Source: Bacteroidota bacterium
Lineage (GTDB): Bacteria > Bacteroidota > Bacteroidia > Flavobacteriales > Flavobacteriaceae
Length of the DNA stretch: 37,631 nucleotides
Direction: 5' to 3'
NCBI GenBank assembly: GCA_003045935.1
Contig: PZPI01000001.1
Span: forward strand, 1 to 37,631
Shown here: piece by piece, positions 2,512 through 22,809 of the stretch
Layout of the letters: every line of letters begins with the position of its first letter
Numbering within the stretch: position 1 is the stretch's first letter
The notes under the pieces: generated by a model
The model's input: only the letters and a program-made list of their open reading frames with translations
Databases searched by the model: none
What the model was told of the DNA's origin: nothing
Translations under genes and position numbers: made by a program

Positions 2512-2925
2512 TTAAGATTTAAAAGAATGTTCGGGTATGGGTGTACCGTGCGGATCATGACTGAAATTAGCCATCATCTCTTGCATCCGTTTAAAAAACT
2601 CCGGATGTTTCACATGCTCTAATTCCTCTGCGATTTCATGAACCTCGTTTGGATCAAATCCCATATTCTCTACCAAGAAGGTTTCGATAAGTCGATGTTT
2701 GGCCACAATCATTTTCGCGTGCTCCTGTCCCTTTTCAGTAAGATGAATCGGTTTATAAGCTTCAGTCTTAACTAGACCCAATTGCACTAAATCCTTGAGC
2801 ATATTAGAAACCGTAGACTTACTCACTGCGAAGCGCTTACTAAGTGCAGTTACAGTAACCCCTTCTTTCTTCTCATTGAAGTGATAGAGTGCCTTTAAAT
2901 AATTTTCTTTTTCAATGGTGGGCAT
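2512..2925 (-). CDS. DtxR/MntR-family metal-dependent transcriptional regulator, short form
   Basis: 137 aa, winged-helix N-terminus (TALSKRFAVSKSTVSNMLKDLVQLGLV) plus metal/dimerisation helices (HRLIETFLVENMGFDPNEVHEIAEELEHV); no C-terminal SH3-like domain. Lies 2 nt upstream of glpD. Confidence 0.85.
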   Translation of the reverse strand: MPTIEKENYLKALYHFNEKKEGVTVTALSKRFAVSKSTVSNMLKDLVQLGLVKTEAYKPIHLTEKGQEHAKMIVAKHRLIETFLVENMGFDPNEVHEIAEELEHVKHPEFFKRMQEMMANFSHDPHGTPIPEHSFKS

Positions 2926-2944
2926 TTCGCGCAGCTTTGTCTTT

Positions 2945-2952
2945 CAAAATTA
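2945..2952 (-). promoter_or_regulatory. Candidate Bacteroidota -7 promoter box (TAATTTTG) for the regulator-glpD operon
   Basis: Minus-strand TAATTTTG matches TAnnTTTG, about 20 nt upstream of the regulator start; TTTA about 17 nt upstream as a weak -33. Confidence 0.4.
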
Positions 2953-2986
2953 AGGATTTAAAACGGCCTTAAAGATGAAGCTATGG

Positions 2987-4375
2987 TTAACTAAGCCTGC
3001 TATTAATTCCTAAAAGGGTCTTTAACGCCTTTAACTTTCCTTTATACGGAGCATATCGAAGCGGTAAGTCTAGCCAAGTAGCCCGATATAAAACCGGCTT
3101 TTCACGACTAAAAGTGTCAAAGCCATACTTGCCATGATAGCTTCCATATCCACTATTACCAACTCCTCCAAAAGGAAGGCTATTTTCAGCAATCATCATA
3201 ATAGTATCATTTACTGCTGCTTGACCAAAAGAATAATTAGTTAAAAGCTCTTCAGCAAACGACTTATTTTTAGAGAAAACATAAAATGCTAAAGGATTCG
3301 GATGACCTCTCAGCCACTGATCCATTTCTTTAGCGTCGCTATAGCTAATTACAGGTAACACAGGACCAAAAATCTCCTCTTGCATCACCGAAGAATCTAG
3401 AGTAACATCCACCAAAATCGTTGGAGAAACATAGCACTCAGATTCATCAGTCTCTCCTCCGTAATATACAGAGCACTCACCAATGAACCTCTGCATTCGA
3501 ACGACATGCTTAGGATGAATAAGTCGTCCGTAATCTTCACTTTCTATTGCCGACCTTCCGTAGGCCTTTTCAATTTGAGCCACCAAAGCCTTAAGTAGAG
3601 GTTCCTTTATAGAATCATGAACCAGTAAATAATCGGGAGCAATACAAGTTTGACCCACATTGAGCAGCTTTCCCCACACTATGCGGCGAGCGGTCAACTC
3701 AATTGGAGCAGTTCCATCGATGATACAAGGTGACTTACCTCCCAACTCCAACGTACACGGTGTAAGATGCTCAGCAGCAGCTTTAGCTACAATTTTACCT
3801 ACCGCAACACTGCCAGTGAAGAAAATGTAATCCCAATGATGACCTAATAATTCTGTACTAGTTTGGGCGTCCCCCAATACTACAGCTACATGTGCAGGAT
3901 CAAAAACTTCTTCTATGATTTTTTTTAAGAGCTCACTGGTCTTTTCAGAATATTCGCTAGGTTTTAATACCACCGTATTACCTGCTGCAATTGCAGAAAC
4001 TAGCGGAGTTAGACTCAGCTGAAAAGGGTAATTCCAAGGGGCAATATGAAGAGTAATCCCATAAGGATCTTTAATGACCTTTGCCTTCGCGGGAAATGAT
4101 GCTAAGCCTACAGATCTTGATTCAGAGGCACCCCAACGATCAAGATGTTTTAGCGTGTGTGTGATTTCAGATTGAACATAACTGATTTCAGTGGCGACAG
4201 ATTCAAAGGCAGACTTTCCTAAATCGTCGGCTAAAGCCTGAAGAATTTCGGATTCATAGCCATTGATCGCAACCGAAAGTTTTTTCAGCGCAGCTTTTCT
4301 AAAAGGGATGGAACGCGAAGCGCCGGCTTCAAAAAACCGGCGCTGCTTATCGATTATTTCAGCAATTGAACTCAT
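2987..4375 (-). CDS. NAD(P)-dependent aldehyde dehydrogenase family protein
   Basis: LELGGKSPCIID and GQTCIAPDYLL catalytic motifs, EEIFGPVLPV, PFGGVGNSGYG. Confidence 0.93.
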   Translation of the reverse strand: MSSIAEIIDKQRRFFEAGASRSIPFRKAALKKLSVAINGYESEILQALADDLGKSAFESVATEISYVQSEITHTLKHLDRWGASESRSVGLASFPAKAKVIKDPYGITLHIAPWNYPFQLSLTPLVSAIAAGNTVVLKPSEYSEKTSELLKKIIEEVFDPAHVAVVLGDAQTSTELLGHHWDYIFFTGSVAVGKIVAKAAAEHLTPCTLELGGKSPCIIDGTAPIELTARRIVWGKLLNVGQTCIAPDYLLVHDSIKEPLLKALVAQIEKAYGRSAIESEDYGRLIHPKHVVRMQRFIGECSVYYGGETDESECYVSPTILVDVTLDSSVMQEEIFGPVLPVISYSDAKEMDQWLRGHPNPLAFYVFSKNKSFAEELLTNYSFGQAAVNDTIMMIAENSLPFGGVGNSGYGSYHGKYGFDTFSREKPVLYRATWLDLPLRYAPYKGKLKALKTLLGINSRLS

Positions 4376-4395
4376 TGCTCTAAGTTAAAGAAAAC

Positions 4396-4950
4396 TTAGA
4401 AAGCAAGGGTTGCCTCAAGCTTGATATCATCTAGAATTAACTTATCTCCAAGATTCTCAAAGAAAGTCCCAGATCTAAAGCGTACATCAAATTTAGCGCG
4501 GTTAAATGTCATTGTTGCATTATAACCACTGGTGCCGTTCGAGGTGAAATGCACTTCAGTTGGCTGAGTAATTCCTTTGATAGTTAAATCACCTTTCGCG
4601 TGGAATGATCCGTCACGAAGTTTAGCTACATCTGTAAGGATAAGAAATGCTTTCTCGAATTTGTCAATTGAAAAGAAATCATCTGAACTAAGATGACCTG
4701 CTAACTTTTCGGCCCACTCTCCAGTTAAGTCTTCAACCTTTAGGGTGGTCATATCAATTTCAAAGGCTCCTCCAGTGATATCCCCATTAGAGATTTGAAG
4801 GTCTGCTTTAGAAAATGAGAGAGACCCGAAATGAGTCTTACCCACCACATCAGATCCAGACCACTTCAAATTGCTTGACTCCAGGTTTACCTCTTGCGCA
4901 GATAAACTGATAGAAAAAACAGTAGTAAGTAATAATAGAATACGTTTCAT
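4396..4950 (-). CDS. YceI-family periplasmic protein
   Basis: Signal peptide MKRILLLLTTVFSISLSAQ at internal Met (4950), YceI-like beta-barrel sequence (GDLTIKGITQPTEVHFTSNG). The listed start at 4989 is likely over-extended. Confidence 0.85.
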   Translation of the reverse strand: MKRILLLLTTVFSISLSAQEVNLESSNLKWSGSDVVGKTHFGSLSFSKADLQISNGDITGGAFEIDMTTLKVEDLTGEWAEKLAGHLSSDDFFSIDKFEKAFLILTDVAKLRDGSFHAKGDLTIKGITQPTEVHFTSNGTSGYNATMTFNRAKFDVRFRSGTFFENLGDKLILDDIKLEATLAF

Positions 4951-5014
4951 AAGTTGAATTTTTCTTTTAAAGGTACAAGCAATATTCAACCAATAAAGGT
5001 GTAAGATGGAGAAA

Positions 5015-5032
5015 TCTTAATCTAGATTAAGA
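5015..5032. promoter_or_regulatory. 18-bp perfect palindrome TCTTAATCTAGATTAAGA upstream of the yceI-like gene
   Basis: Read directly: sequence equals its own reverse complement; about 65 bp upstream of the 4950 start. Confidence 0.45.
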
Positions 5033-5036
5033 ATGG

Positions 5037-5525
5037 TTAAGCTACCTCACGCTCGAAAGCGATATAATGGGTGAGTTGGTTCGCTTTGTTATAAAGCGGT
5101 ACAATTTTCACCTTACAAAGGTATGCCTCACCGTTTTTACGATAGTTGGTGATGGATGCGGAAAAAGGTTTATTCGCAGACAGACCTTCATGAAACCGAG
5201 AACGTTCCTCATCCTTTGTTCCTGGACCATGAAGCATTGTTGGTTGCTTACCTACAATTTCATAAGCGTTGTAGCCTGTCATGTCAGTAAAGCCAGCATC
5301 TACCCAAATCACTTTATTACTACTATCAGTGATAATAATCGCTTGGTAATCATTGTAATCTTCGGCAGCCATTTCGATAGGAGTTACCCAAGAATAATTA
5401 TTTGCAAATCGAGAATACACCTCTTCTAAGTGCTTTCCATTGAGCTCTTGACAAAGCCGATGATAATGTTCTAAAAAGAAGTCTCCAGCGATAAGAGGAA
5501 GTGATCCTGATGTGGACATAAACAA
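5037..5525 (-). CDS. Stand-alone PAS/PAC (LOV-like, no photoactive Cys) protein
   Basis: PAS core GYNAYEIVGKQPTMLHGPGTKDEE ... NYRKNGEAYLCKVKIVPLYNKANQLTHYIAFEREV; no attached output domain. Confidence 0.85.
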   Translation of the reverse strand: MFMSTSGSLPLIAGDFFLEHYHRLCQELNGKHLEEVYSRFANNYSWVTPIEMAAEDYNDYQAIIITDSSNKVIWVDAGFTDMTGYNAYEIVGKQPTMLHGPGTKDEERSRFHEGLSANKPFSASITNYRKNGEAYLCKVKIVPLYNKANQLTHYIAFEREVA

Positions 5526-5608: not shown

Positions 5609-6154
5609 TTAGTTTTTAATGAAGAAAAGTTGAATTTCACATCGTATCTGGGATTCAATAGGCTTAAACAAAAACCTCGGTAAACGAATTTTTGTCTGAC
5701 TTAGGTCTAGGATGAATTCACCTTTAATCGAATATCCGGTATCGCTTTCAATGTATTGCAGGTCTACCGATTGAGGGATTTTATAGCCTGAAAGATTGAA
5801 CTCGCCGATGATACTAATGGTATCCTTTTTGTTTAATGTTAGGTCTTCACTATAAAACGAAACTTCTGGAAATTCGATGGCATTAAAAATTCTTAAAGCA
5901 TTAGCGTCTCTATTAGCGCTTTTGGAGTCAAAATCGACCAAATTAGCTTTAACAGCGATGCGATTTGGTGTATTTTCTTCGAATTCAATGACTCCTTTTG
6001 GAACGTTATTCACTCCACTCCACTTATGTGCGGGGTGTTTCGCATAATAAATGATACTTGATTTCTCTGTATCTAACATCAACCGATCTTGGCTGAAGAT
6101 CAATCCAGTAAGAAAAAGAAAAGTGAAAATTATTATTGATCTGGGTAGTGTCAT
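5609..6154 (-). CDS. YceI-like domain secreted protein
   Basis: Signal peptide (IIIFTFLFLTGLIFSQ); pattern KANLVDFDSKSANRDANALRIFNAIEFPEVSFYSEDL, GEFNLSGYKIPQSV typical of YceI-like proteins. Confidence 0.75.
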   Translation of the reverse strand: MTLPRSIIIFTFLFLTGLIFSQDRLMLDTEKSSIIYYAKHPAHKWSGVNNVPKGVIEFEENTPNRIAVKANLVDFDSKSANRDANALRIFNAIEFPEVSFYSEDLTLNKKDTISIIGEFNLSGYKIPQSVDLQYIESDTGYSIKGEFILDLSQTKIRLPRFLFKPIESQIRCEIQLFFIKN

Positions 6155-6765
6155 TAATCTAATCTTAAAACTAGGGTAGCGGTTGCAAAAGCACCAACGG
6201 CTGTATATGCTGCGGCTCGGTGTAAGGATTTATCTCGATTTTTGTAGTATTGGGTGGCGATCATTGCAGAGAGGTGAACGGTGGCTAGCCATTTATGTGC
6301 TCTAGCCCCACTGATTCCTTCTTTTCGCGCACTGATTAGTGGCGGAGGCGAGAATAATGACAAAGCCGCTCCTGTGAAGTAAGAAGCAGTGACAAAATTT
6401 CCAAGGGCCTCATGAGTGGCCTTTAAATCGTAATTACCATTATAGAGTTTTCCGCCAATAACTCCTTGTGTGATCATTCCGGCAAGGGTTATGTATCCGA
6501 TAGCCTGGTGAGCAGTTAGCATAGATTTTCTCCATTTGAGTTCTTTAACTCTTTGTTCCCTTGAAAGTGGTGAGATACCCGTCTTTCGCATCAAACCTTT
6601 CTCACCCCAAAGTATTTTCTGCGTAAAGAGCATGCGTTCGGGAAGCAGATCATCTGATAATCGGTTTTCTGAAGAATCTGTGGCATCTATTAAACCAAAC
6701 AAATCGTCTTGCCCAAAAGATGTTTGAGCAATTATAAGCATAAGCAATAGCAATAGTCTTTTCAC
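6154..6765 (-). CDS. Four-helix membrane protein, cytochrome b561-like (putative)
   Basis: GTG start; signal peptide, about 75-aa extracytoplasmic segment, then about 4 hydrophobic helices each with His (AHQAIGY, THEALGN, AHKWLATVH, LHRAAAY). TAGTG/TAATG couplings to neighbours. Confidence 0.55.
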   Translation of the reverse strand: MKRLLLLLMLIIAQTSFGQDDLFGLIDATDSSENRLSDDLLPERMLFTQKILWGEKGLMRKTGISPLSREQRVKELKWRKSMLTAHQAIGYITLAGMITQGVIGGKLYNGNYDLKATHEALGNFVTASYFTGAALSLFSPPPLISARKEGISGARAHKWLATVHLSAMIATQYYKNRDKSLHRAAAYTAVGAFATATLVLRLD

Positions 6766-7298
6766 TATTTCTGAATCGTCAGTGTTTGATCAGTAATCGA
6801 TGTGGTATACGAAACGAGTTTACCAGTGGTATTGTTTGATCCACAACTTACCTCCTCACCTTGGTCAGTATTAAAAATATTTCCGTGAACTCCACAGGTA
6901 AAGGTGTTATCGTTATTATAGGTCCAACTATTCTTAGCTCCGTTGTGCGGACAACAATTATCAAAAGCTAAAATTTGTGAATCTGAGACTCTTAATAAGA
7001 GTACACCAGCGTTTAGAATGTTTACGTTTCCACCCACCGCTTCGAGATCCTTAAAATTATCACTGCTAAGGTCAACGGTTACCATATTGCCGTTTACGGT
7101 AAAGCCAGAAGTATTTGTATTTCCATCCCCTCCAGTATTTGAGTTATTAGAGCCATCCCCTCCGATAACATTTACAGAACCTGTTCCTTCAGAGGAGCAG
7201 GCCTCAAGAAAAGACAAGCCAAACATTGCAAAAACCACTGTTGGACAGGCTTTCGTTAAGAAATCTCTTCGCTTGTTTAAGTGCTTTTCTGTTTTCAT
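6765..7298 (-). CDS. Rieske-type [2Fe-2S] lipoprotein
   Basis: Twin-Arg-like start (KRRDFLTKACP...LEAC lipobox) and Rieske ligand motifs CPHNGA ... CGVHGNIFN. Confidence 0.85.
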   Translation of the reverse strand: MKTEKHLNKRRDFLTKACPTVVFAMFGLSFLEACSSEGTGSVNVIGGDGSNNSNTGGDGNTNTSGFTVNGNMVTVDLSSDNFKDLEAVGGNVNILNAGVLLLRVSDSQILAFDNCCPHNGAKNSWTYNNDNTFTCGVHGNIFNTDQGEEVSCGSNNTTGKLVSYTTSITDQTLTIQK

Positions 7299-8848: not shown

Positions 8849-8911
8849 CATTGGGCTATTTTGGTCGAAAATATACAAATTCATTCACCCCGCCTCTCCA
8901 ATCAAGCAAAA

Positions 8912-9538
8912 ATGATCGATATACAGGCACTTGCAATCTTTTGTAAAACACCTGAGAGAGGATTTGTAAAAACCCGTCTTGCTGCCAGTTTAGGTGACCA
9001 AAAGGCTTTAGAGATCTACCTTGACCTTTTGAAAATTACAGATCAAGAGACCAAGCCCTTCTCTTCTTCGAGACATCTATTCTTAGTGAGCGCCTTAGAA
9101 GATTCTATAGAACAAATGCAATCTACTCTTCAACAGCAAGACCTATTTATCGATCCTAAAATCAATTTTGCAATTCAGCAGGGAGAAGATCTTGGTCAGC
9201 GAATGTTTGCGGCATTCAAAAATCTCTTCAAAAATCATCGATCAGTTGTCCTTATTGGCTGTGATCTTCCTGATTTAACTTCAGCGCTAATTTCTAAAGC
9301 TTTCGATGCACTCCAAAGTAATGATTTAGTAATAGGCCCTAGTTTTGACGGCGGTTATTATCTCATTGGCTTGAAAAAGGAAATACCCGACCTATTCAAA
9401 GAGATTTCTTGGAGCAGCGAAAAGGTCTTAAAACAAACACTGGAAAGGGCCGAACGACTTTCACTCAAAGTTCAACTCTTAGAAAAGTTACGAGACATTG
9501 ATACCCTAGACGACCTTCATTTAAGCAAACTTAAATAG
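8912..9538 (+). CDS. TIGR04282-like (DUF2064) glycosyl/nucleotidyltransferase, arsenosugar-cluster associated
   Basis: ALAIFCKTPERGFVKTRLAASLGDQKALEIYLDLL, LIGCDLPDLT, IGPSFDGGYYLIGL. Likely start MIDIQAL at 8912. Confidence 0.85.
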   Translation: MIDIQALAIFCKTPERGFVKTRLAASLGDQKALEIYLDLLKITDQETKPFSSSRHLFLVSALEDSIEQMQSTLQQQDLFIDPKINFAIQQGEDLGQRMFAAFKNLFKNHRSVVLIGCDLPDLTSALISKAFDALQSNDLVIGPSFDGGYYLIGLKKEIPDLFKEISWSSEKVLKQTLERAERLSLKVQLLEKLRDIDTLDDLHLSKLK

Positions 9539-9586
9539 GCAGGTGAAGGCTTAATATCCGCCCAAAATAGTCGTAATTTAGAGGCT

Positions 9587-10396
9587 ATGTTAACAGAAGA
9601 TGTTTTAAAAGAATCTTTGGCATTCTTGCGTTCCAAAGGATTCGGAGATGCGGAGGTCGGTATCATTTTAGGCACAGGCCTTGGTCAGTTTGTAGATGAA
9701 ATCACCATTGAAGCGGTAGCACATTATCACCATATTCCTTACTTCCCTATATCAACGGTTGAATACCACTCAGGAAAACTCCTTTATGGTACGCTTCAGG
9801 GTAAAAAGGTAGTTGTAATGCAAGGAAGATTTCACCTCTATGAAGGCTATGACTTTGTAGAACTGACTTATCCGATACGGGTGATGCACGCTCTAGGGAT
9901 TAATAAACTTTTGGTATCGAATGCTGCGGGAGCGATTAACCCTGATTATAAAAAAGGGGATTTATTACTTATAGACGACCATATCAACCTACAAGGAGGT
10001 TCACCACTTGCCTTCTCGAACGTGAGTGAATTCGGGCCTCGATTTGTAGATATGATTTGTCCCTATGATGCAAAACTTTCAAAAAAATTAGAAGAAAAGG
10101 CAGGCAGTGTCGGGATTAGACTTCACCGTGGCGTTTATGCCGCCGTTATAGGGCCTCAACTAGAGACTCGTGCCGAGTATCGAATGCTGAGAATTCTAGG
10201 TGCTGATGCTGTAGGGATGAGTACAGTACCTGAGGTCATTGTGGCCAACCAGCTAAACCTTCCCGTAGTAGCGATTTCAGTGCTTACCGATGAATGTGAC
10301 CCTGATCATCTGCAGCCCATAAACGTGCCTGAGATCATGGAAATCGCAAAGGCCAGCGAACCAAAACTTATCCAACTTTTTAAATCGGTTATTTAA
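9587..10396 (+). CDS. Purine nucleoside phosphorylase
   Basis: GTGLGQFVDEI, YHSGKLLYGTLQGKKVVVMQGRFHLYEGY, SNAAGAINPDYKKGDLLLIDDHIN, PQLETRAEYRMLRILGADAVGMSTVPEV. Confidence 0.95.
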   Translation: MLTEDVLKESLAFLRSKGFGDAEVGIILGTGLGQFVDEITIEAVAHYHHIPYFPISTVEYHSGKLLYGTLQGKKVVVMQGRFHLYEGYDFVELTYPIRVMHALGINKLLVSNAAGAINPDYKKGDLLLIDDHINLQGGSPLAFSNVSEFGPRFVDMICPYDAKLSKKLEEKAGSVGIRLHRGVYAAVIGPQLETRAEYRMLRILGADAVGMSTVPEVIVANQLNLPVVAISVLTDECDPDHLQPINVPEIMEIAKASEPKLIQLFKSVI

Positions 10397-11361
10397 TGGG
10401 TTATCTAGATGCCACACATGATTTATACACCAAAGCTGCTGAAACCCCTGAGATAGGCTTGTGCTGTACCACCAGCCCCATATGGCAATTTCCTGGATTG
10501 TCGATCCCTAAACGGATGCAAGAAATGAACTACGGCTGCGGAACAACGGTTTCGGCTTCTGATCTTGTGGGCAATCCTAAAATACTCTATGTCGGAGTGG
10601 GCGGAGCAATGGAGCTGCTTCAGTTTGCGTATTTCTCTAGAGAAAAGGGGAATATCATCGGGGTAGATTCGGTCGACAGAATGCTTCAAGCGGCAGAAGA
10701 GAATCTCTTAGTGGCTGAAAAAGAAAATGAATGGTTCGAACACGAATTTATCGAACTAAGAAAGGGCGATGCGCTAAACTTGCCTATTGAAGATGAATCT
10801 GTCGATATTGCCGCACAAAATTGCCTCTTTAATATCTTCAAATCAGAGGATCTCATGAAAGCGATCTCTGAAATGTATCGGGTATTAAAACCGCACGGCA
10901 GACTAGTTATGAGCGACCCAATCTGTGAGCAACCGATTTCTGAAACGCTTCGAAACGACGACCGGTTAAGAGCGGAGTGTTTGAGCGGAGCTATTCCACT
11001 AAAAGACTACCTCAAGGCACTTACCGAAGCTGGCTTCGGCACTATCGAGGTGAGAGCCAAGCACTCATATCGCATTCTTGATCCGAAACACTATTCGACC
11101 GATCAGTTAATACATATTGAATCGGTTGAAGTATGTGCGATTAAAGATCCAATGCCTTCAGACGGGCCTTGTATTTTTACGGGCAAAACCGCAATTTACT
11201 TTGGAGAAGAGGAGTATTATGACGATCATAAAGGCCACCTCCTGTTAAGACACCAACCACTCGCGGTTTGTGATAAGACAGCCGCTCAACTAGACCGTTT
11301 AGATACCGACATCCATATTAGTGAATCTACCTATCATTACAGAGGAGGAGGCTGCTGTTAA
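10396..11361 (+). CDS. arsM: Arsenosugar-biosynthesis-type arsenite methyltransferase (ArsM-like)
   Basis: SAM motif LYVGVGGAMELLQFAYFSREKGNIIGVDSVDRML; Cys-rich features (GLCCTTSP, NYGCG, AECLSG, C-terminal GGGCC); TAATG-coupled to both neighbours. Confidence 0.8.
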   Translation: MGYLDATHDLYTKAAETPEIGLCCTTSPIWQFPGLSIPKRMQEMNYGCGTTVSASDLVGNPKILYVGVGGAMELLQFAYFSREKGNIIGVDSVDRMLQAAEENLLVAEKENEWFEHEFIELRKGDALNLPIEDESVDIAAQNCLFNIFKSEDLMKAISEMYRVLKPHGRLVMSDPICEQPISETLRNDDRLRAECLSGAIPLKDYLKALTEAGFGTIEVRAKHSYRILDPKHYSTDQLIHIESVEVCAIKDPMPSDGPCIFTGKTAIYFGEEEYYDDHKGHLLLRHQPLAVCDKTAAQLDRLDTDIHISESTYHYRGGGCC

Positions 11362-12662
11362 TGGATGAAAAAATCGTCATTATCGGTAATGGTGTTGCAG
11401 GAAGCACTTTAGCTCTTCGATTAGCAGAGAAAGGAGTTGCTTCAATAACTTTGCTCTCAGAGGAAAGTTCTTATTTCTTCTCTCGTACCGCTCTGATGTA
11501 CGTTTACATGGGGCATTTAACTAAGGAGCAACTCGAGCCTTTTTCTAGAGAAAGTTGGAATAAATATCCGATTCAGCGCATCAAAGCCCGGGTTTTATCG
11601 ATTAGCCCTGAACATCAAGAGCTTTCATTTCGAACCAGCGAAGGGAACGAAAAGCAACTATCGTATGATAAGTTAGTGATTGCGACCGGATCAAAACCGG
11701 CATTCTATGATTGGAAAGGGCTAGAAGCGAAAGGAGTTTTAGGCCTCTACCATTTAAACGATTTAGAGCAATTGGAAGAATGGGCTCCGAATGCTACTAC
11801 TTGTCCCGAAGCTGTTGTGATTGGGGGTGGATTAATTGGTATCGAACTTTGCGAGATGCTACTTAGTCGCAAAATAAAAACAACCCTAATTATCAGAGAA
11901 AACTTCTTTTGGTCAAGCCACTTGCCAGAATCCGATGCTCAATTCGTAGAAAAACACATTCGTTCGCACCATTTAAATCTCATTAAAGAAGATGAGCTAT
12001 TAGAAATAAGGGCAGATGAAAACGGTCGCGCCGCTTCAATTCAGACTAAGAAAGGCAAGACGATTACGTGCAATTTAGTCGGAATTACTACCGGTGTACG
12101 TCCAAATATTGAGTTTTTAAAAACTAGTGGATTAGAACTAGACAAAGGAGTACTCGTCGATGAATATCTGAAAACCTCAGATTCTTCGATTTATGCCATT
12201 GGTGACTGCGCACAGCTTAGAAATCCACTCCCGAATCGTTCGGCAATAGAACCGGTATGGTATACTGGAAAATTGATGGGCGAAATACTCGCTCAGACTT
12301 TTTCTGGCGAGTTGATCTCATATAACCCTGGGGTATGGTATAACTCAGCGAAGTTTTTCGATCTCGAATATCAGACTTATGGCAAAGTCAGTCCAAAAAC
12401 ATTGCAACCCGAGAGTGAGCAACATTTTCATTGGGAGACTGATGACAAAGCAGTGACCTTGTCCTATGACAAGACCTCCGAAGTATTTTTAGGAATCAAT
12501 ACCTTCGGTATCCGTCTGAATCATAAATTGGTCAGCCACTGGATTGAAACGGCTATTACGATACAAGAAGTAATTGATCGTCTAGAGGAAGCGCACTTCG
12601 ATCCAGAATTTAGTAACCGACACTACAAGCAGATTAAACATGCATTCTTACAGAACCACTAG
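11361..12662 (+). CDS. NAD(P)/FAD-dependent oxidoreductase
   Basis: IVIIGNGVAGSTLALRLAEKG, VVIGGGLIGIELCEMLLSRK, DSSIYAIGDCAQL. Confidence 0.88.
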   Translation: MDEKIVIIGNGVAGSTLALRLAEKGVASITLLSEESSYFFSRTALMYVYMGHLTKEQLEPFSRESWNKYPIQRIKARVLSISPEHQELSFRTSEGNEKQLSYDKLVIATGSKPAFYDWKGLEAKGVLGLYHLNDLEQLEEWAPNATTCPEAVVIGGGLIGIELCEMLLSRKIKTTLIIRENFFWSSHLPESDAQFVEKHIRSHHLNLIKEDELLEIRADENGRAASIQTKKGKTITCNLVGITTGVRPNIEFLKTSGLELDKGVLVDEYLKTSDSSIYAIGDCAQLRNPLPNRSAIEPVWYTGKLMGEILAQTFSGELISYNPGVWYNSAKFFDLEYQTYGKVSPKTLQPESEQHFHWETDDKAVTLSYDKTSEVFLGINTFGIRLNHKLVSHWIETAITIQEVIDRLEEAHFDPEFSNRHYKQIKHAFLQNH

Positions 12663-14079
12663 TATACAAAAGGTATTCACCTATACAGGACTGGCTGGCC
12701 TAGCAGTTTTAATACTTGCGGGGTTCACGATATCTTTCTTCAAATCAACAGGCCTTATTCTAGGATTAAGCCTAATCAGTACTGGGGTAATAGGCTATAC
12801 TTATTCAAGCTATTTAGGCCTGCCAGCAGGCATTAAAAATAACGGCGTTTGGTATCGATCACTCACTTCGAGGGGTATTGTCGCTTGGGTGGTCGGAGTT
12901 GTTTTAACTGCCTTTTATGTTGTACTCTACTTTTATCCCGAGTACTTAGAGGGAATTATTCGACTATTCGACCCATTAAGTGAAGGGTTGAGTGGGAAAA
13001 AGGCATCGCAATGGTTCGTGTACGGAGTACTTTACACCCTTGCTATCGTTCTTTTTGGAATTAAGTTTATTAAAAAATACAAGCACTCGAAGTACCAAAA
13101 ATACCGAACCTACAGCGTCATATTTTTTCAGACCATTTTCGCGTTTTTAATACCGGAAATTATGGCTCGACTGAACGGAGATCTACCCTATTACGATCTG
13201 AAAAGCATTTGGCCTTTGAATTATTACCTGTTCGATAGTTACCAATTAGATGGATTTATACAAAACGGCAGCCTAGGAACTGCACTTTTGATTTTTGGTA
13301 TTCTGTCTACGCTAATCATTACGCCTATTCTGACTTATAAATTTGGGAAACGATGGTACTGCTCATGGGTTTGTGGGTGCGGTGGTCTTGCTGAGACTGC
13401 AGGGGATCCCTTTAGACAATTAAGCGACAAGAGCCTTCGAGCATGGAAACTCGAAAGATGGATGATTCATCTTATTCTAGTCTGGGTTTTCATAAGCACC
13501 GTCGGGGTCGTTTACAGCTATCTCCTACAAACTCCTGACTCTTATTTTATTAGCCCTAATACCTTCCTCATTTCAGTAGGTCTTCTTTTTAGTCTCGTGG
13601 TAGGATTAATTCTTTGGAAGCGAAGCGATTGGTTAGCAAAAGATGCCCGGTCATCGGTCATTGCCATCAGCTCAATAGTTGTTTTGCTTTTAGGATTCTT
13701 CTTTTTCAGTGAAAGTGATCGAGTACTCTTTATACCTTCTTATCAGATTCGTTCAGCCTATGGATTTTTCATCGGCAGTATCTTTTCTGGGGTGATTGGT
13801 ACAGGGTTTTATCCGATACTTGGTAACAGAGTATGGTGCCGATTCGGATGCCCTATGGCAGCGATTTTAGGAATACAGCAAAAGCTTTTTTCAAAATTTA
13901 AGATCAGTACCAACGGCGGGCAATGTATCTCATGCGGCAACTGCTCAGCTTATTGTGAAATGGGAATAGACGTTCGCTCCTATGCGCAACGACAAGAACC
14001 AATAAAAAGAGCCTCTTGTGTGGGATGCGGAATCTGCTCCGAAGTTTGTCCAAGAGGAGTACTTCGACTAGAGTCATGA
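12640..14079 (+). CDS. Polytopic membrane 4Fe-4S protein (NapH/CcoG-like)
   Basis: Multiple hydrophobic helices; WYCSWVCGCGG, VWCRFGCPMAA, and C-terminal two-cluster ferredoxin domain CISCGNCSAYCEMG / CVGCGICSEVCPRG. Confidence 0.85.
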   Translation: MHSYRTTSIQKVFTYTGLAGLAVLILAGFTISFFKSTGLILGLSLISTGVIGYTYSSYLGLPAGIKNNGVWYRSLTSRGIVAWVVGVVLTAFYVVLYFYPEYLEGIIRLFDPLSEGLSGKKASQWFVYGVLYTLAIVLFGIKFIKKYKHSKYQKYRTYSVIFFQTIFAFLIPEIMARLNGDLPYYDLKSIWPLNYYLFDSYQLDGFIQNGSLGTALLIFGILSTLIITPILTYKFGKRWYCSWVCGCGGLAETAGDPFRQLSDKSLRAWKLERWMIHLILVWVFISTVGVVYSYLLQTPDSYFISPNTFLISVGLLFSLVVGLILWKRSDWLAKDARSSVIAISSIVVLLLGFFFFSESDRVLFIPSYQIRSAYGFFIGSIFSGVIGTGFYPILGNRVWCRFGCPMAAILGIQQKLFSKFKISTNGGQCISCGNCSAYCEMGIDVRSYAQRQEPIKRASCVGCGICSEVCPRGVLRLES

Positions 14080-17451: not shown

Positions 17452-18325
17452 CATCAAGAACTCTCCACTGCCCTCGAGGAAGATCTTTCTTGGTAAGCCC
17501 CGCAAACATCACTCGATCGAGTTTTGAAACCTCATAACCCAAGTGTTCAAAAATTCTGCGTACAACACGGTTTCTTCCAGAGTGAATTTCAAGACCCACT
17601 TCGCGTTTAGTGGCTCCTGCGATGTAAGAAACGGCATCAACACTTATTGGGCCATCTTCTAATTCAATTCCTTTCTCGATTTGTTGTAAATCACTCACCT
17701 TTAACGCGCGGTCTAACACAACGTGGTAAATCTTTCTTACGGCATAGCGAGGATGAGTAAGCTTCGCCGCCATATCGCCATCGTTAGTGAAAAGTAACAG
17801 ACCCGTAGTATTGCGATCTAATCGACCCACAGGCAAAAGACGACTCTTGCTTGAATTACTAATTAAATCCATGACCGTTTTACGGCCTTTATCGTCTTCG
17901 GTGGTGGTAAGAAAGTTCTTGGGTTTATTCAGGAGTACGTACTCCATCTTTTCTGGGGTTAGTAGTCGGCCATCAAATTTAACTGAATCACCCGGCATGA
18001 CCTTGTATCCCATTTCGCTAACCACCTTACCATTAACCTCTACACTACCGGCCGTAATGAAGGTATCCGCCTCTCGTCTCGAACAGATTCCTGCATGAGC
18101 AATGTAACGGTTAAGCCGCATGCTTCCATCATCTGCCTTCTTGGGCTCACTAGTCCTGGGCTTCGCAGGACGCTTATTGAAAGGTCGCGAACCTCCTCTT
18201 TGTTGACCTTCTCTTTGTTGGCCTTCTCGTTTTGGTCCTTCTGAGGGTCGTTGTTTACCTGATCTCTGACCTCCTGCGTTTTTCTTTGGTTTACGGTTGT
18301 TCAATGTGACTCGTTTAGAGCGCAA
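17408..18325 (-). CDS. RsuA/RluB-family rRNA pseudouridine synthase with basic Gly/Gln-rich N-terminal extension
   Basis: S4-like RLNRYIAHAGICSRREADTFI; catalytic PVGRLDRNTTGLLLFTNDGD. Confidence 0.92.
   Translation of the reverse strand: MRSKRVTLNNRKPKKNAGGQRSGKQRPSEGPKREGQQREGQQRGGSRPFNKRPAKPRTSEPKKADDGSMRLNRYIAHAGICSRREADTFITAGSVEVNGKVVSEMGYKVMPGDSVKFDGRLLTPEKMEYVLLNKPKNFLTTTEDDKGRKTVMDLISNSSKSRLLPVGRLDRNTTGLLLFTNDGDMAAKLTHPRYAVRKIYHVVLDRALKVSDLQQIEKGIELEDGPISVDAVSYIAGATKREVGLEIHSGRNRVVRRIFEHLGYEVSKLDRVMFAGLTKKDLPRGQWRVLDAKEVSFLKMIGKRS
18196..18240. repeat. About 3 copies of a 15-bp tandem repeat in the pseudouridine synthase N-terminal coding region
   Basis: ctctttgttgacctt / ctctttgttggcctt / ctcgttttggtcctt (encodes GPKRE-GQQRE-GQQRG). 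Confidence 0.8.
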
Positions 18326-19220
18326 AAATAAACGCTTTTAATTGATGTAATCGATTCAAATCAAACAATAAAATACTCAGGGTACCTAACAACACCCAAA
18401 ATTTCAATAACAAGCGCATTTTTAGATAGCTAACACCCATAAAACTGAAAATCAATTCGATAGCTACAAAAACTAGAACTGCCACCGAGGCGCTAAAGTA
18501 AAGTTGCATCTGTCCGAGGTCAGCCCGTAGACTTAAACCAAGACCTAAGAAGGCAAGAACAAAAAGCATACCCGCTGTAATGTTTCTGGTTTTTGACTCT
18601 CCTAATTGAATGGGTAGCGAATGTAAACCGCTAGAAAGATCTCCCTTCAGGTTGTTCAAATCTTTTAATTGAACGAGTACCCAAAGGAGTAGAAACAAGA
18701 AGCTAGCAAAGAGTAAAATACGGGATTCAAAATGCCTGTAATAAAGAAAAAGAGCAACAATAGGGCTAACAGCAAGAAAAGCGCTGAGTACAGACCCCCA
18801 AATAAAGAGGGAACGAATTCTATGGGAGTATAGCCAGATGGTCATGATGTATCCGACGAAAAAAAGCGCTGCTAGAAGAGAGACCTTAAGCGCCATTAAA
18901 AAGGCAATAAAATTAAGCAGCAAATACCCTCGCATAAGGGAGGATAATGACCATTGGCCGTCAATGACCGTTTTGACCGGACGATTAATAAGGTCTTTGG
19001 GATGATCGTAATATTGATTGATTAGATATCCGGCCGTAACAACAAAGAAGCTTGAACCAACGAGTAAGTGAAGCTCTAGATTTTGCAATAGATCAGCGAC
19101 TGGATAAGTCGATCCGAGAATAAAAATAGCGGATAAATATTGAGCTAAAACTACCAAAAATGCATTTTGGAGTCGAGTAACACTAAAAAACGTAAGGAGA
19201 TTTCTTTTGACGCTAGGCAT
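18315..19220 (-). CDS. UbiA-family prenyltransferase
   Basis: Polytopic, NQYYDHPKDLINRP motif and second Asp motif region VQLKDLNNLKGD. Confidence 0.85.
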   Translation of the reverse strand: MPSVKRNLLTFFSVTRLQNAFLVVLAQYLSAIFILGSTYPVADLLQNLELHLLVGSSFFVVTAGYLINQYYDHPKDLINRPVKTVIDGQWSLSSLMRGYLLLNFIAFLMALKVSLLAALFFVGYIMTIWLYSHRIRSLFIWGSVLSAFLAVSPIVALFLYYRHFESRILLFASFLFLLLWVLVQLKDLNNLKGDLSSGLHSLPIQLGESKTRNITAGMLFVLAFLGLGLSLRADLGQMQLYFSASVAVLVFVAIELIFSFMGVSYLKMRLLLKFWVLLGTLSILLFDLNRLHQLKAFIFAL

Positions 19221-19222
19221 AC

Positions 19223-20182
19223 CTAAAAGGTATAAACTACCTCTAATTGATGACCGTCCAGCGCCTTTTTAGTAGCCTCTAAATCTTGAGTGAATCCCAA
19301 AAAATAGCCTCCACCGCCAGAGCCGCAAAGTTTAAGGTAATAGGTATCAGTTTCTAACCCCTTCTTCCAAATATCGTGGAAGTTCATAGGGATCATTGGT
19401 TTAAAGTGATCGAAGACTACTCCTGATAACTTTCGAAGATCGCTAAAAAGAGAGCGTATATTACCGCTTAAGAAGTGATCAATACACGCATCGGTATATT
19501 GAACAAATTGCTCTCTCATGACCTCTTCGAACTGCTTATTCTTGAGATTCTCCATAAAGAGTTGAACCATAGGTGCCGTCTCTCCAGTTATCCCGCTGTC
19601 TAACAGAAAAACTGCTCCCTTACCCGCTTGGTTTTGCGAAGGTATTGGAGTAGATTCTACATGATCTTTAGCGTGTATTAAAATAGGTAGACTTAGATAG
19701 CTATTGAGCGGATCAAGACCCGATGAAGTCCCATGAAAATGAGATTCCATAATCGCAAATTGTCCTTTGAGTGTAAGCAGTTTGTCTCTAGTTAACGAAC
19801 CTAAGACCGAAACCTTCTCATCAGCGTATCGGTCATAAATCGCAGCAACAATCGCTCCGCTACTCCCTACCCCATATCCCATAGGAATCGAACTATCGAA
19901 ATACATACCTTTCTCTAAATCGGCATCTAGTCGTTCAAAATCAAACGAAACATCAAGTCGCTGCTCAGCCACCTGGTTCTTTAGGTAGGCAGCATAACTT
20001 TTTAGATGAGAGTTAGAAGAAGAAGCTATTTCAGAGGAGGTATCCTCCTTAAAACGCAAGGCTCCTTTGAACGCATTAAACGGTATCGCAAGGCCTTTAG
20101 AATCTTTAATAATCCCGTACTCTCCGAAAAGAAGAATCTTAGCGTAAAATAATGGGCCTTTCATTTTGTTTAAGTTTTTCAT
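19223..20182 (-). CDS. GHMP kinase, mevalonate kinase-like
   Basis: PMGYGVGSSGAIVAAIYDRY ATP motif, FHGTSSGLDPLNSYLS, KLCGSGGGGYFLGF; adjacent to diphosphomevalonate decarboxylase. Exact start (20182 or 20164) uncertain. Confidence 0.8.
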   Translation of the reverse strand: MKNLNKMKGPLFYAKILLFGEYGIIKDSKGLAIPFNAFKGALRFKEDTSSEIASSSNSHLKSYAAYLKNQVAEQRLDVSFDFERLDADLEKGMYFDSSIPMGYGVGSSGAIVAAIYDRYADEKVSVLGSLTRDKLLTLKGQFAIMESHFHGTSSGLDPLNSYLSLPILIHAKDHVESTPIPSQNQAGKGAVFLLDSGITGETAPMVQLFMENLKNKQFEEVMREQFVQYTDACIDHFLSGNIRSLFSDLRKLSGVVFDHFKPMIPMNFHDIWKKGLETDTYYLKLCGSGGGGYFLGFTQDLEATKKALDGHQLEVVYTF

Positions 20183-20197
20183 CTCAAAGGTAAACAA

Positions 20198-21256
20198 TTA
20201 TTTCGCTCCAAATCCACATTCATCTAACAAGTACTGTCTGTCTTCGCAAAACGCAGCTAGCTCATTATCAATCAAATCAATAACACGCTTCTTATTTTCA
20301 ACCGGGTATAAGACATGTACATTTGCGCCAGCGTCCAAGGTAAAACAAACCGGTATGTTGGTCTCTGCTCTAAACGTTCTGATGCGCTGTATAATCGACA
20401 ACGTACCCGGTTGCATTAGAATATAACTAGGTGTGGAACTAAGCATCATCGCGTGAAGACTAAGCGCCTCTAACTCTACAATTTCGATAAACTGATCGAG
20501 CTCACCACCACGCAAGACAGTTAGAAGCTTCGCTAGATGATCATTTGCTTGAGCAAATCGCCTCTTAGCAAAAGGGTGATTGTTCATTAAATTATGACCC
20601 ACCGTACTACTTACAGACTTCACTCCTTTATGTACTAATAAGATGGCATCTTGATAGGTGTTGAAAATCGGATGCGCCTCAAGAAAAGGAGTTGCAAAAA
20701 GATCTGAGCTTTCAGTGATATCTTTATGAAAACCCCAGCTCATAAGAGGTCCTTCAATACTTCGAGCCGCACTTCCCGATCCAAGACGAGCTAGAAAAGA
20801 AGCCTTCTTCAAATTCACTTCGCTACCAGAAAGCTTCGCCTCGAGATTGCAAATAGCCATTGCTAAAGCTGCCATTCCGCTAGCTGAAGAAGCTATTCCG
20901 CTACTGTGTGGGAAACTATTCGAGGTTTCGATATTCAAGCTATAACCTTTCAAATAAGGACAATAAACTCCTATCCTATCGACAAAAGATTGAATCTTTG
21001 GAATAAAACTTGGCTTGGCCTCTCCCTCAAATTTTAAGTTAATTTCAGGAGATTTAGAAGGTTCAAAAAATACCGTAGTGTCGGTAAAAGCCTTACTAAG
21101 AGTGAACGAAATCGATGGGTTAGCAGGAATCTGAGGATCGTATTTTCCCCAATACTTTACTAAAGCAATATTGCTCGGCGCACGATGTGTGGCTTTATAA
21201 GAAAACTCGTTCTCCTTGAGGTTTGATTTAAATTCTTCGAGCAATTGATCATTCAT
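20198..21256 (-). CDS. mvaD: Diphosphomevalonate decarboxylase
   Basis: APSNIALVKYWGKYDPQIPANPSISFTL, NSFPHSSGIASSASGMAALA, ARLGSGSAARS. Start at MNDQLLEEF (21256), not 21370. Confidence 0.92.
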   Translation of the reverse strand: MNDQLLEEFKSNLKENEFSYKATHRAPSNIALVKYWGKYDPQIPANPSISFTLSKAFTDTTVFFEPSKSPEINLKFEGEAKPSFIPKIQSFVDRIGVYCPYLKGYSLNIETSNSFPHSSGIASSASGMAALAMAICNLEAKLSGSEVNLKKASFLARLGSGSAARSIEGPLMSWGFHKDITESSDLFATPFLEAHPIFNTYQDAILLVHKGVKSVSSTVGHNLMNNHPFAKRRFAQANDHLAKLLTVLRGGELDQFIEIVELEALSLHAMMLSSTPSYILMQPGTLSIIQRIRTFRAETNIPVCFTLDAGANVHVLYPVENKKRVIDLIDNELAAFCEDRQYLLDECGFGAK

Positions 21257-21274
21257 AACTTCCCCAATAAAGGG

Positions 21275-21282
21275 CAAAGATA
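21275..21282 (-). promoter_or_regulatory. Candidate -7 box (TATCTTTG) for the mvaD operon
   Basis: Exact TAnnTTTG match on the minus strand, about 19 nt upstream of the 21256 start; no clear -33 TTG found. Confidence 0.35.
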
Positions 21283-21294
21283 ACAGAATGTTAT
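21280..21294. promoter_or_regulatory. Palindrome ATAACA-GAA-TGTTAT in the divergent glpK/mvaD promoter region
   Basis: Perfect 6-bp arms with 3-bp spacer, overlapping the candidate mvaD -7 box. Confidence 0.35.
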
Positions 21295-21324
21295 TGTATC
21301 TTTTTGGAGTTAAATGGGTTATTA

Positions 21325-22809
21325 ATGAAATCATATATACTGGCCCTCGATCAGGGAACCACCAGCTCAAGAGCGTTAATTATTAACCACCAAGGTGAAG
21401 TTGTTGCCATGGCTCAGAAAGAATTCAAGCAATTCTTTCCTCAAAATGGCTGGGTAGAACACGACGCCAATGAAATTTGGGAAAGTCAACTCGAAGTTAC
21501 TCGAGAAGCCCTTTCCAAAATCAAAGGTGAAGCATCGTCAATAAGCGCTATCGGAATTACTAATCAACGAGAGACTGCTGTAGTTTGGGACAGAAAAACC
21601 GGAAAGCCCATCTACCAAGCCATTGTCTGGCAAGATAAACGTACCACCGATGTCTGTGAACATTTAAAAACTGAGGGCAAAGCTGCTTTCATTCAGTCTA
21701 AAACCGGGCTCGTTATCGACTCGTATTTCTCTGGAACCAAAATTGCCTGGATACTCGACCATGTACCCGGAGCACGAAAAAGAGCTGAGCAAGGTGAGCT
21801 TATGGCTGGTACTATTGACAGTTGGCTTTGTTATAAGTTGAGTAATCATCAGCTTCATATTACTGATCCTTCTAACGCATCACGAACCTTACTCTACAAC
21901 ATTAATACGCTCGACTGGGACAAAGAGTTACTCGAAATTTTCAAAGTACCTCACAATCTTTTACCAATGGTTAAGTCTTCAAGCGAGGTCTATGGACATA
22001 CTCACAAAGAACTTTTCGGAAAAGAGATTCCTATCGCGGGGATTGCAGGAGATCAACAAGCTGCACTGTTCGGACAACAATGCACCGAGGTAGGTATGGT
22101 AAAAAACACCTATGGTACAGGTTGTTTCATGCTGATGAATGTCGGTGACAAACCAGTCTTCTCAAATGCTAATCTACTGAGTACAGTAGCTTGGCAAATC
22201 GGCGATCAGGTCACCTACGCACTTGAGGGTAGTGTCTTTATGGCTGGCGCCATCGTTCAATGGCTTAGAGATAGTCTAGGGTTTATAGAAGCCTCTTCTG
22301 AGGTGGAGGCACTTGCGGCAAGCGTGCCAGATAGTTCGGGAGTTTATTTTGTGCCTGCTTTCGTTGGACTTGGAGCACCTTATTGGGATGCTTATGCTAG
22401 AGGTCAAATCACCGGACTGACTAGAGGGACCACAAAAGCCCATATCTCTAGAGCCGCATTAGATGCAATTGCCTATCAAACATTAGATATCTTAGAGGCC
22501 ATGCAAAAAGATGCAAAGACCTCAATTCAAGTACTTAAGGTAGACGGAGGTGCTTCAAATAACAATCTTCTAATGCAGTTCCAAGCAGATATTTTACAAA
22601 GTCAAGTGCTTCGACCGAAGCAAGTAGAGACTACTGCTATGGGTGCAGCCTTCCTTGCAGGTCTTGCTGTAAATTTCTGGACTTCCACTCAAGAGATTAA
22701 TAGCATCTCAGAGGAAGATCGAAGATTTATTCCAGAACCACTAAACTCAAAAATTACTAACGGAATTAAGGGTTGGCACGAGGCGGTGTCAACTTGTCTA
22801 ACCAAATAA
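21325..22809 (+). CDS. glpK: Glycerol kinase
   Basis: [61 protein letters not shown]. Start at ATG 21325. Confidence 0.97.

Follow-up and report, generated by a model that had tools for sequence, protein, structure and literature searches.

What could bring a Rieske protein, a membrane protein with histidines near its helix ends and a YceI-like protein together in one tightly packed row of genes? The question is raised by a stretch of 37,631 nucleotides from a member of the Flavobacteriaceae, hereafter called the window. ORF reading of the window finds the three predicted genes in place, all on the minus strand. The first encodes a Rieske [2Fe-2S] lipoprotein of 177 aa (6765–7298), the second a b561-like, putatively four-helix membrane protein of 203 aa with a GTG start and a signal-like N-terminus (6154–6765), and the third a YceI-family periplasmic protein of 181 aa with a signal peptide (5609–6154). 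On the reverse strand, the stop of the Rieske gene and the start of the b561-like gene share TAGTG at 6765, and the stop of the b561-like gene and the start of the YceI gene share TAATG at 6154; both of the reported 1-nt overlaps are thus real. Small gaps or overlaps are also seen at the Rieske/b561-like junction in relatives. The original prediction had read this trio as a possible electron-transfer module, and that reading is supported by a gene order which recurs across the phylum and by histidines conserved on helix faces. The trio is very probably a conserved redox module, while for the specific mechanism, a menaquinone-linked envelope redox relay, the chances are about even.

The gene order is the first thing to be considered. 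Of 400 genomes of the family, 33 contain a relative of the b561-like gene, as do 32 of 396 drawn from the whole phylum; each count includes the window's own genome. Since the window's genome was the only positive one among 198 genomes of an order-level sample, the distribution is patchy. The neighbourhoods were read at 77 loci, with the family and phylum sets overlapping in part. At 76 of these, the b561-like gene is followed immediately, on the same strand, by a YceI gene, and the only locus where YceI does not adjoin (L094) is a second b561-like copy of one genome. A same-strand Rieske gene flanks the b561–YceI pair at 28 of the 33 loci of the phylum-wide set and in 10 of the 12 families other than the window's own; it is mostly found upstream, and downstream of YceI in L105–L108. 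Only 8 of the 27 loci in the family set have it next to the pair. The claimed triplet is, therefore, not unique to one genome, and YceI is a more constant partner of the b561-like gene than the Rieske protein.

The neighbours could also have come together by chance or through genome compaction. The genome is indeed small (1.56 Mb in 159 contigs), and members of the genus also share the GH32, PAS and aldehyde dehydrogenase genes that flank the trio. Beyond the genus, however, the flanks change and the b561–YceI pair is retained; this order recurs in 13 families of Bacteroidota (the window's own and 12 others), which excludes a chance association. The Rieske gene, mostly upstream yet downstream of YceI in four loci, occurs on either side of the pair, and selection for linkage is therefore indicated. 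Chance or compaction is thus largely refuted and extremely improbable.

The flanks carry some lineage-specific genes of their own. In the window's genus, the trio is followed (2512–5525, minus strand) by a PAS-domain protein (5037–5525), a second YceI and an aldehyde dehydrogenase. This second YceI, termed YceI_A (4396–4989, minus strand; PF04264 at 71.9 bits), belongs to another subfamily and joins the trio in this genus only (L014–L019 and L029). Several genomes of the genus add a DtxR/MntR-like regulator and a glycerol-3-phosphate dehydrogenase after the trio. Another family (f43) has a lineage-specific gene of about 320 aa downstream of the trio, which, we assume, resembles DUF4835, a common envelope protein of Bacteroidota.

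The identity of the membrane protein is less direct. At E ≤ 0.1, neither Pfam nor NCBIfam gives a match for the window protein, and PF03188, the eukaryotic-type b561 family, does not match it even at E ≤ 1. The DOMON-like fold, which had been named along with b561 as one to look for, finds no Pfam support at either of these thresholds. PF01292, the prokaryotic b561 family that presumably includes YceJ of E. coli and LcoA of Burkholderia cenocepacia, has no match in the window's genome, and profile comparison with the membrane family gives none either; membership of PF01292 is thus unsupported. Some distant members weakly match PF01292 (best E 4.6e-6) and PF03188, and one distant homologue, L113, exceeds the PF03188 cut-off of 23 with 26.1 bits. 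PF03188 finds four genes in 148 genomes of the phylum (L191–L194), and all of them are assigned by profile to the family of the module. Hence, distant members of the family pass or approach the PF03188 cut-off, whereas the window's own copy has no match. No significant PDB match was returned by Foldseek with either the shallow or the deep model, a search which is uninformative for a four-helix bundle; the deep model had no significant match among viral models, and a PDB sequence search with the membrane family had none. The protein is best regarded as b561-like, with predicted haem, and as nearer to PF03188 than to PF01292, in which it would differ from LcoA. That the window protein reaches no b561 cut-off in Pfam, and no b561 structure in Foldseek, counts against the relay preferred below.

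More can be learnt from the alignment of 58 b561-like homologues, the most distant at about 29% identity. None of the sequences lacks His86, His157 or His164; His182 is present in 57 and His118 in 52 of them. P42, W53, R60, R72, R79, L83, G104, Y129, P140 and P141 are invariant as well. AlphaFold2, run on the alignment (mean pLDDT 89, pTM 0.76), predicts a signal-like N-terminal helix followed by four long ones (69–108, 112–137, 153–173 and 179–199). Each membrane stretch has one histidine close to its start (His86, His118, His157 and His182), and the fifth is at 164. When the conserved face of each helix is calculated with the histidines omitted, all five lie 1–38 degrees off it, the moment of TM4 being weak. 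The helix-end histidines that had been pointed out are thus conserved among the 58 homologues and placed on conserved, presumably inward, helix faces.

The signal-peptide-like end near FGQ suggests that the mature N-terminus is periplasmic. Because of this orientation, we infer that His86, His157 and His164 lie in the periplasmic half of the membrane and His118 and His182 in the cytoplasmic half, which is the layout of a di-haem b561. The four-helix core, with conserved histidines on the presumed inner faces and in two layers as judged by sequence conservation and helix phase only, is a trait of the b561 superfamily. The probable haem ligands are His86, His118, either His157 or His164, and His182. 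The family shares with the eukaryotic-type b561 of PF03188 the four-helix core and a histidine near each helix start; it differs in the extra His164 and in a periplasmic N-terminal segment with the invariant W53, R60, R72 and R79.

The least constant of the five is His118, which is replaced by Lys in five and by Gln in one of the 58 homologues. In the five with Lys118 (L099, L100, L105, L106 and L108), His182 is kept, and the substitution may reflect a Lys/His ligation, the loss of the second haem or a shift in the alignment. This combination is unexpected for a strict bis-His second haem and counts against the relay. In L094 (4965–5633), the diverged second b561-like copy, both His118 and His182 are gone. 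Such a joint loss fits a pairing of the two residues and looks like the decay of one haem site.

Could the membrane protein do without haem altogether? Its histidines would then have a part in the transfer of metal or protons, and the trio would handle envelope lipids or isoprenoids together with a Rieske-based enzyme. The window protein, having no significant structural match and no direct Pfam match to b561, leaves room for this, and the extra invariant His164 and the HxxH motif of the YceI partner (described below) could bind a metal. The distant members do reach PF03188, however, and the positions of the histidines and their placement on the conserved faces fit haem ligation of the b561 kind, making a haem-free protein very unlikely.

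The third protein had been called YceI-like, and it does match PF04264 at 33.9 bits (cut-off 23.7). Moreover, a profile derived from the YceI partners recovers E. coli YceI at 8e-24. Among 33 such partners, Y36, H40, H43, F75, S77, D83, F100, G117 and P159 are invariant. The H40-x-x-H43 motif is missing in 27 other YceI proteins, most of them from the partners' own genomes and with E. coli YceI and YceI_A among them, as well as in 30 YceI-like matches from 32 relatives that have no b561-like gene; one other YceI subfamily shares only the His at position 43. As the motif is invariant in the partners and absent elsewhere among the proteins examined, the module has, at the level of sequence, its own YceI subfamily. 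A PDB search with YceI alone gave nothing useful.

The pairing of yceJ and yceI in E. coli, to which the original prediction had appealed, is real; the two genes are adjacent, with the b561 gene before YceI as in the trio. Unlike the trio, the E. coli pair has no Rieske gene alongside, and its YceI reads HLGYSW where the YceI of the module reads HPxHxW.

The Rieske protein is the easiest of the three to recognise. It matches PF00355 at 37.4 bits (cut-off 20.3), and the cluster ligands that had been read from it, C116-P-H118 and C135-G-V-H138, are present and invariant in 34 homologues. Its N-terminus, NKRRDFLTK...LSFLEAC, bears out the proposed Tat/lipoprotein signal by combining a Tat-like RRDFL with the lipobox LEAC (Cys34). 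In the 34 homologues, the lipobox Cys is invariant and a Tat-like R-x-x-F-L context is present. The linker of the window protein is rich in Gly, Asn and Ser. The stretches around its ligands read CPHNGA and CGVHG, without disulphide cysteines beside them; the disulphide type is represented by 7 of the 34 homologues, some of them in other families. A missing Rieske disulphide suggests a lower potential, and since most of the Rieske partners are without the high-potential disulphide, some electron steps of the relay may possibly run uphill, a point against it.

Among solved structures, the nearest relatives are of the PetC type (5cxm, 1.2e-19). The window protein resembles PetC/QcrA in its CxH and CxxH ligands to the [2Fe-2S] cluster, but it is a lipoprotein with a flexible linker and no disulphide, and no bc-type cytochrome b is encoded beside it, the neighbour being the b561-like protein. 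Another explanation is a small quinol:Rieske oxidoreductase that would feed some periplasmic acceptor, a minimal alternative to the bc complex, in which YceI would extract or deliver the quinone and have no protective role. A Rieske protein next to a di-haem-like b protein does represent the core of bc-complex chemistry, some partners in other families have the disulphide cysteines, and the PetC-type relatives fit as well. Nevertheless, the neighbourhoods inspected show neither a cytochrome c gene nor any other acceptor gene next to the trio, the window Rieske without its disulphide points to a lower potential, and the constant partner of the membrane protein is YceI rather than the Rieske protein. 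Such an enzyme is unlikely.

The link between the Rieske and b561-like genes extends beyond adjacency. When genomes of the family were searched with the module's own Rieske profile at a threshold of at least 100 bits, a match was found anywhere in the genome in 32 of the 33 with a b561-like gene and in 6 of 32 without one. The Fisher p of about 2e-11 for this co-occurrence is overstated, as the genomes share ancestry and the same loci supplied the profile. Against the relay, the Rieske gene is often non-adjacent in Flavobacteriaceae and is also found in other gene contexts. The Rieske protein may therefore serve more than one partner.

One of these contexts lies in a purM-like/prfA slot, which in L161–L165, where there is no b561-like gene, holds a Rieske gene together with thioredoxin-like and ApbE-like genes, named by reading their sequences and not by a family search. 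In relatives such as L127, L131 and L138, b561-like and YceI genes fill the same slot, and two redox modules thus appear to share one position. An ApbE or thioredoxin partner was also considered for the trio itself and set aside, no such genes being found in its inspected flanking ORFs.

Non-adjacent Rieske genes often stand beside TonB-receptor-like genes (named by sequence reading), and this bears on another explanation, an outward metal reductase. In such a system, quinol electrons would pass from the b561-like protein to the Rieske protein, which would reduce ferric or cupric ions or their complexes for uptake, with YceI as an auxiliary ligand carrier. Some b561 proteins are known to be ferric reductases (PMC9113575). 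In one family (f28; L113 and L114), genes for an STN-domain-like TonB receptor and a FecR-like protein lie upstream of the trio, and the DtxR/MntR-like regulator near the trio in the window's genus would also suit a metal-related role. Yet only one of the 12 other families shows the TonB link to the trio, and Bacteroidota are rich in TonB genes. The metal reductase would, moreover, leave the invariant YceI partner without a role, and it is considered quite unlikely.

The reading preferred here, at about even odds, is that the three genes would work as a single envelope redox relay. It draws on the conserved order, the conserved histidines, the link to PF03188, the HxxH YceI and the co-occurrence of the Rieske gene. 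The membrane protein would be a four-helix cytochrome of the b561 type, probably with two b haems, the one on the periplasmic side held by His86 with His157 or His164 and the one on the cytoplasmic side by His118 with His182. It would trade electrons with the menaquinone pool and deliver them to the periplasmic face, where two partners could receive them. One would be the Tat-exported, lipid-anchored Rieske protein on its flexible linker; the other would be the soluble YceI barrel with an isoprenoid ligand, probably a quinone.

The nearest known counterparts of the trio are the proteobacterial lcoA–bcnA and yceJ–yceI pairs. In B. cenocepacia, the cytochrome b561 LcoA and the YceI lipocalin BcnA limit lipid peroxidation, and it has been proposed that LcoA re-reduces the ubiquinone bound to BcnA (PMC9113575). 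As in the trio, the gene of a b561-type membrane protein lies directly upstream of that of a YceI lipocalin. In contrast to the trio, no Rieske protein is described for this system (PMC9113575), and the YceI of the trio has one extra invariant His (HxxH). By analogy with LcoA–BcnA, the likeliest use of the relay would be to keep a YceI-bound quinone reduced so that it quenches lipid or oxygen radicals in the envelope. The aldehyde dehydrogenase gene of the window (2987–4375), which lies three genes past the trio in this genus, was not seen beside the trio in other lineages; it recalls PsrA, the aldehyde reductase of the LcoA–BcnA system.

Similarly, the superoxide oxidase CybB of E. coli is a four-helix di-haem membrane protein which couples periplasmic redox chemistry to quinone (PMC11869295). 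Its positively charged periplasmic cluster (PMC11869295) might have a counterpart in the invariant R60, R72 and R79 of the b561-like protein. Unlike the trio, CybB has no Rieske or YceI partner described (PMC11869295).

A more specific version of the relay, put forward tentatively and rather improbable, is a non-bc Rieske pathway, where a minimal four-helix di-haem b561 would pass electrons of menaquinol to the Tat-exported Rieske lipoprotein and to an HxxH YceI acting as a quinone shuttle. If this were true, a quinone-linked Rieske pathway of the non-bc kind would be widespread in Bacteroidota, HxxH would be a redox or metal site, and YceI would diffuse through the periplasm.

The trio appears to be of the b561–YceI kind with a Rieske protein added, and it is apparently both widely conserved and undescribed; a literature search, which left subscription papers largely outside, found none that joins YceI, b561 and Rieske. 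YceI proteins are widespread, yet little is known of their physiological partners. A b561–YceI pair found in 13 families, usually with a Rieske gene, gives YceI a defined redox context. YceI also seems to have been combined with b561 proteins from two different families. The idea of a redox-active quinone carried by YceI for envelope protection thus becomes testable in a second phylum, and the five histidines, the HxxH motif and the Rieske ligands are the diagnostic residues for mutation.

Two other regions of the window may be mentioned. An arsenosugar biosynthesis cluster occupies 8861–14079 on the plus strand, with a TIGR04282 glycosyltransferase (197.7 bits, cut-off 134) and ArsM (NF038099, 551 bits, cut-off 400), along with purine nucleoside phosphorylase-like, flavin disulphide reductase-like and membrane 4Fe-4S proteins. 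On the minus strand, at 18315–21370, a UbiA-type prenyltransferase is followed by GHMP-kinase-like and decarboxylase-like proteins, which, read by eye, resemble enzymes of the mevalonate pathway.
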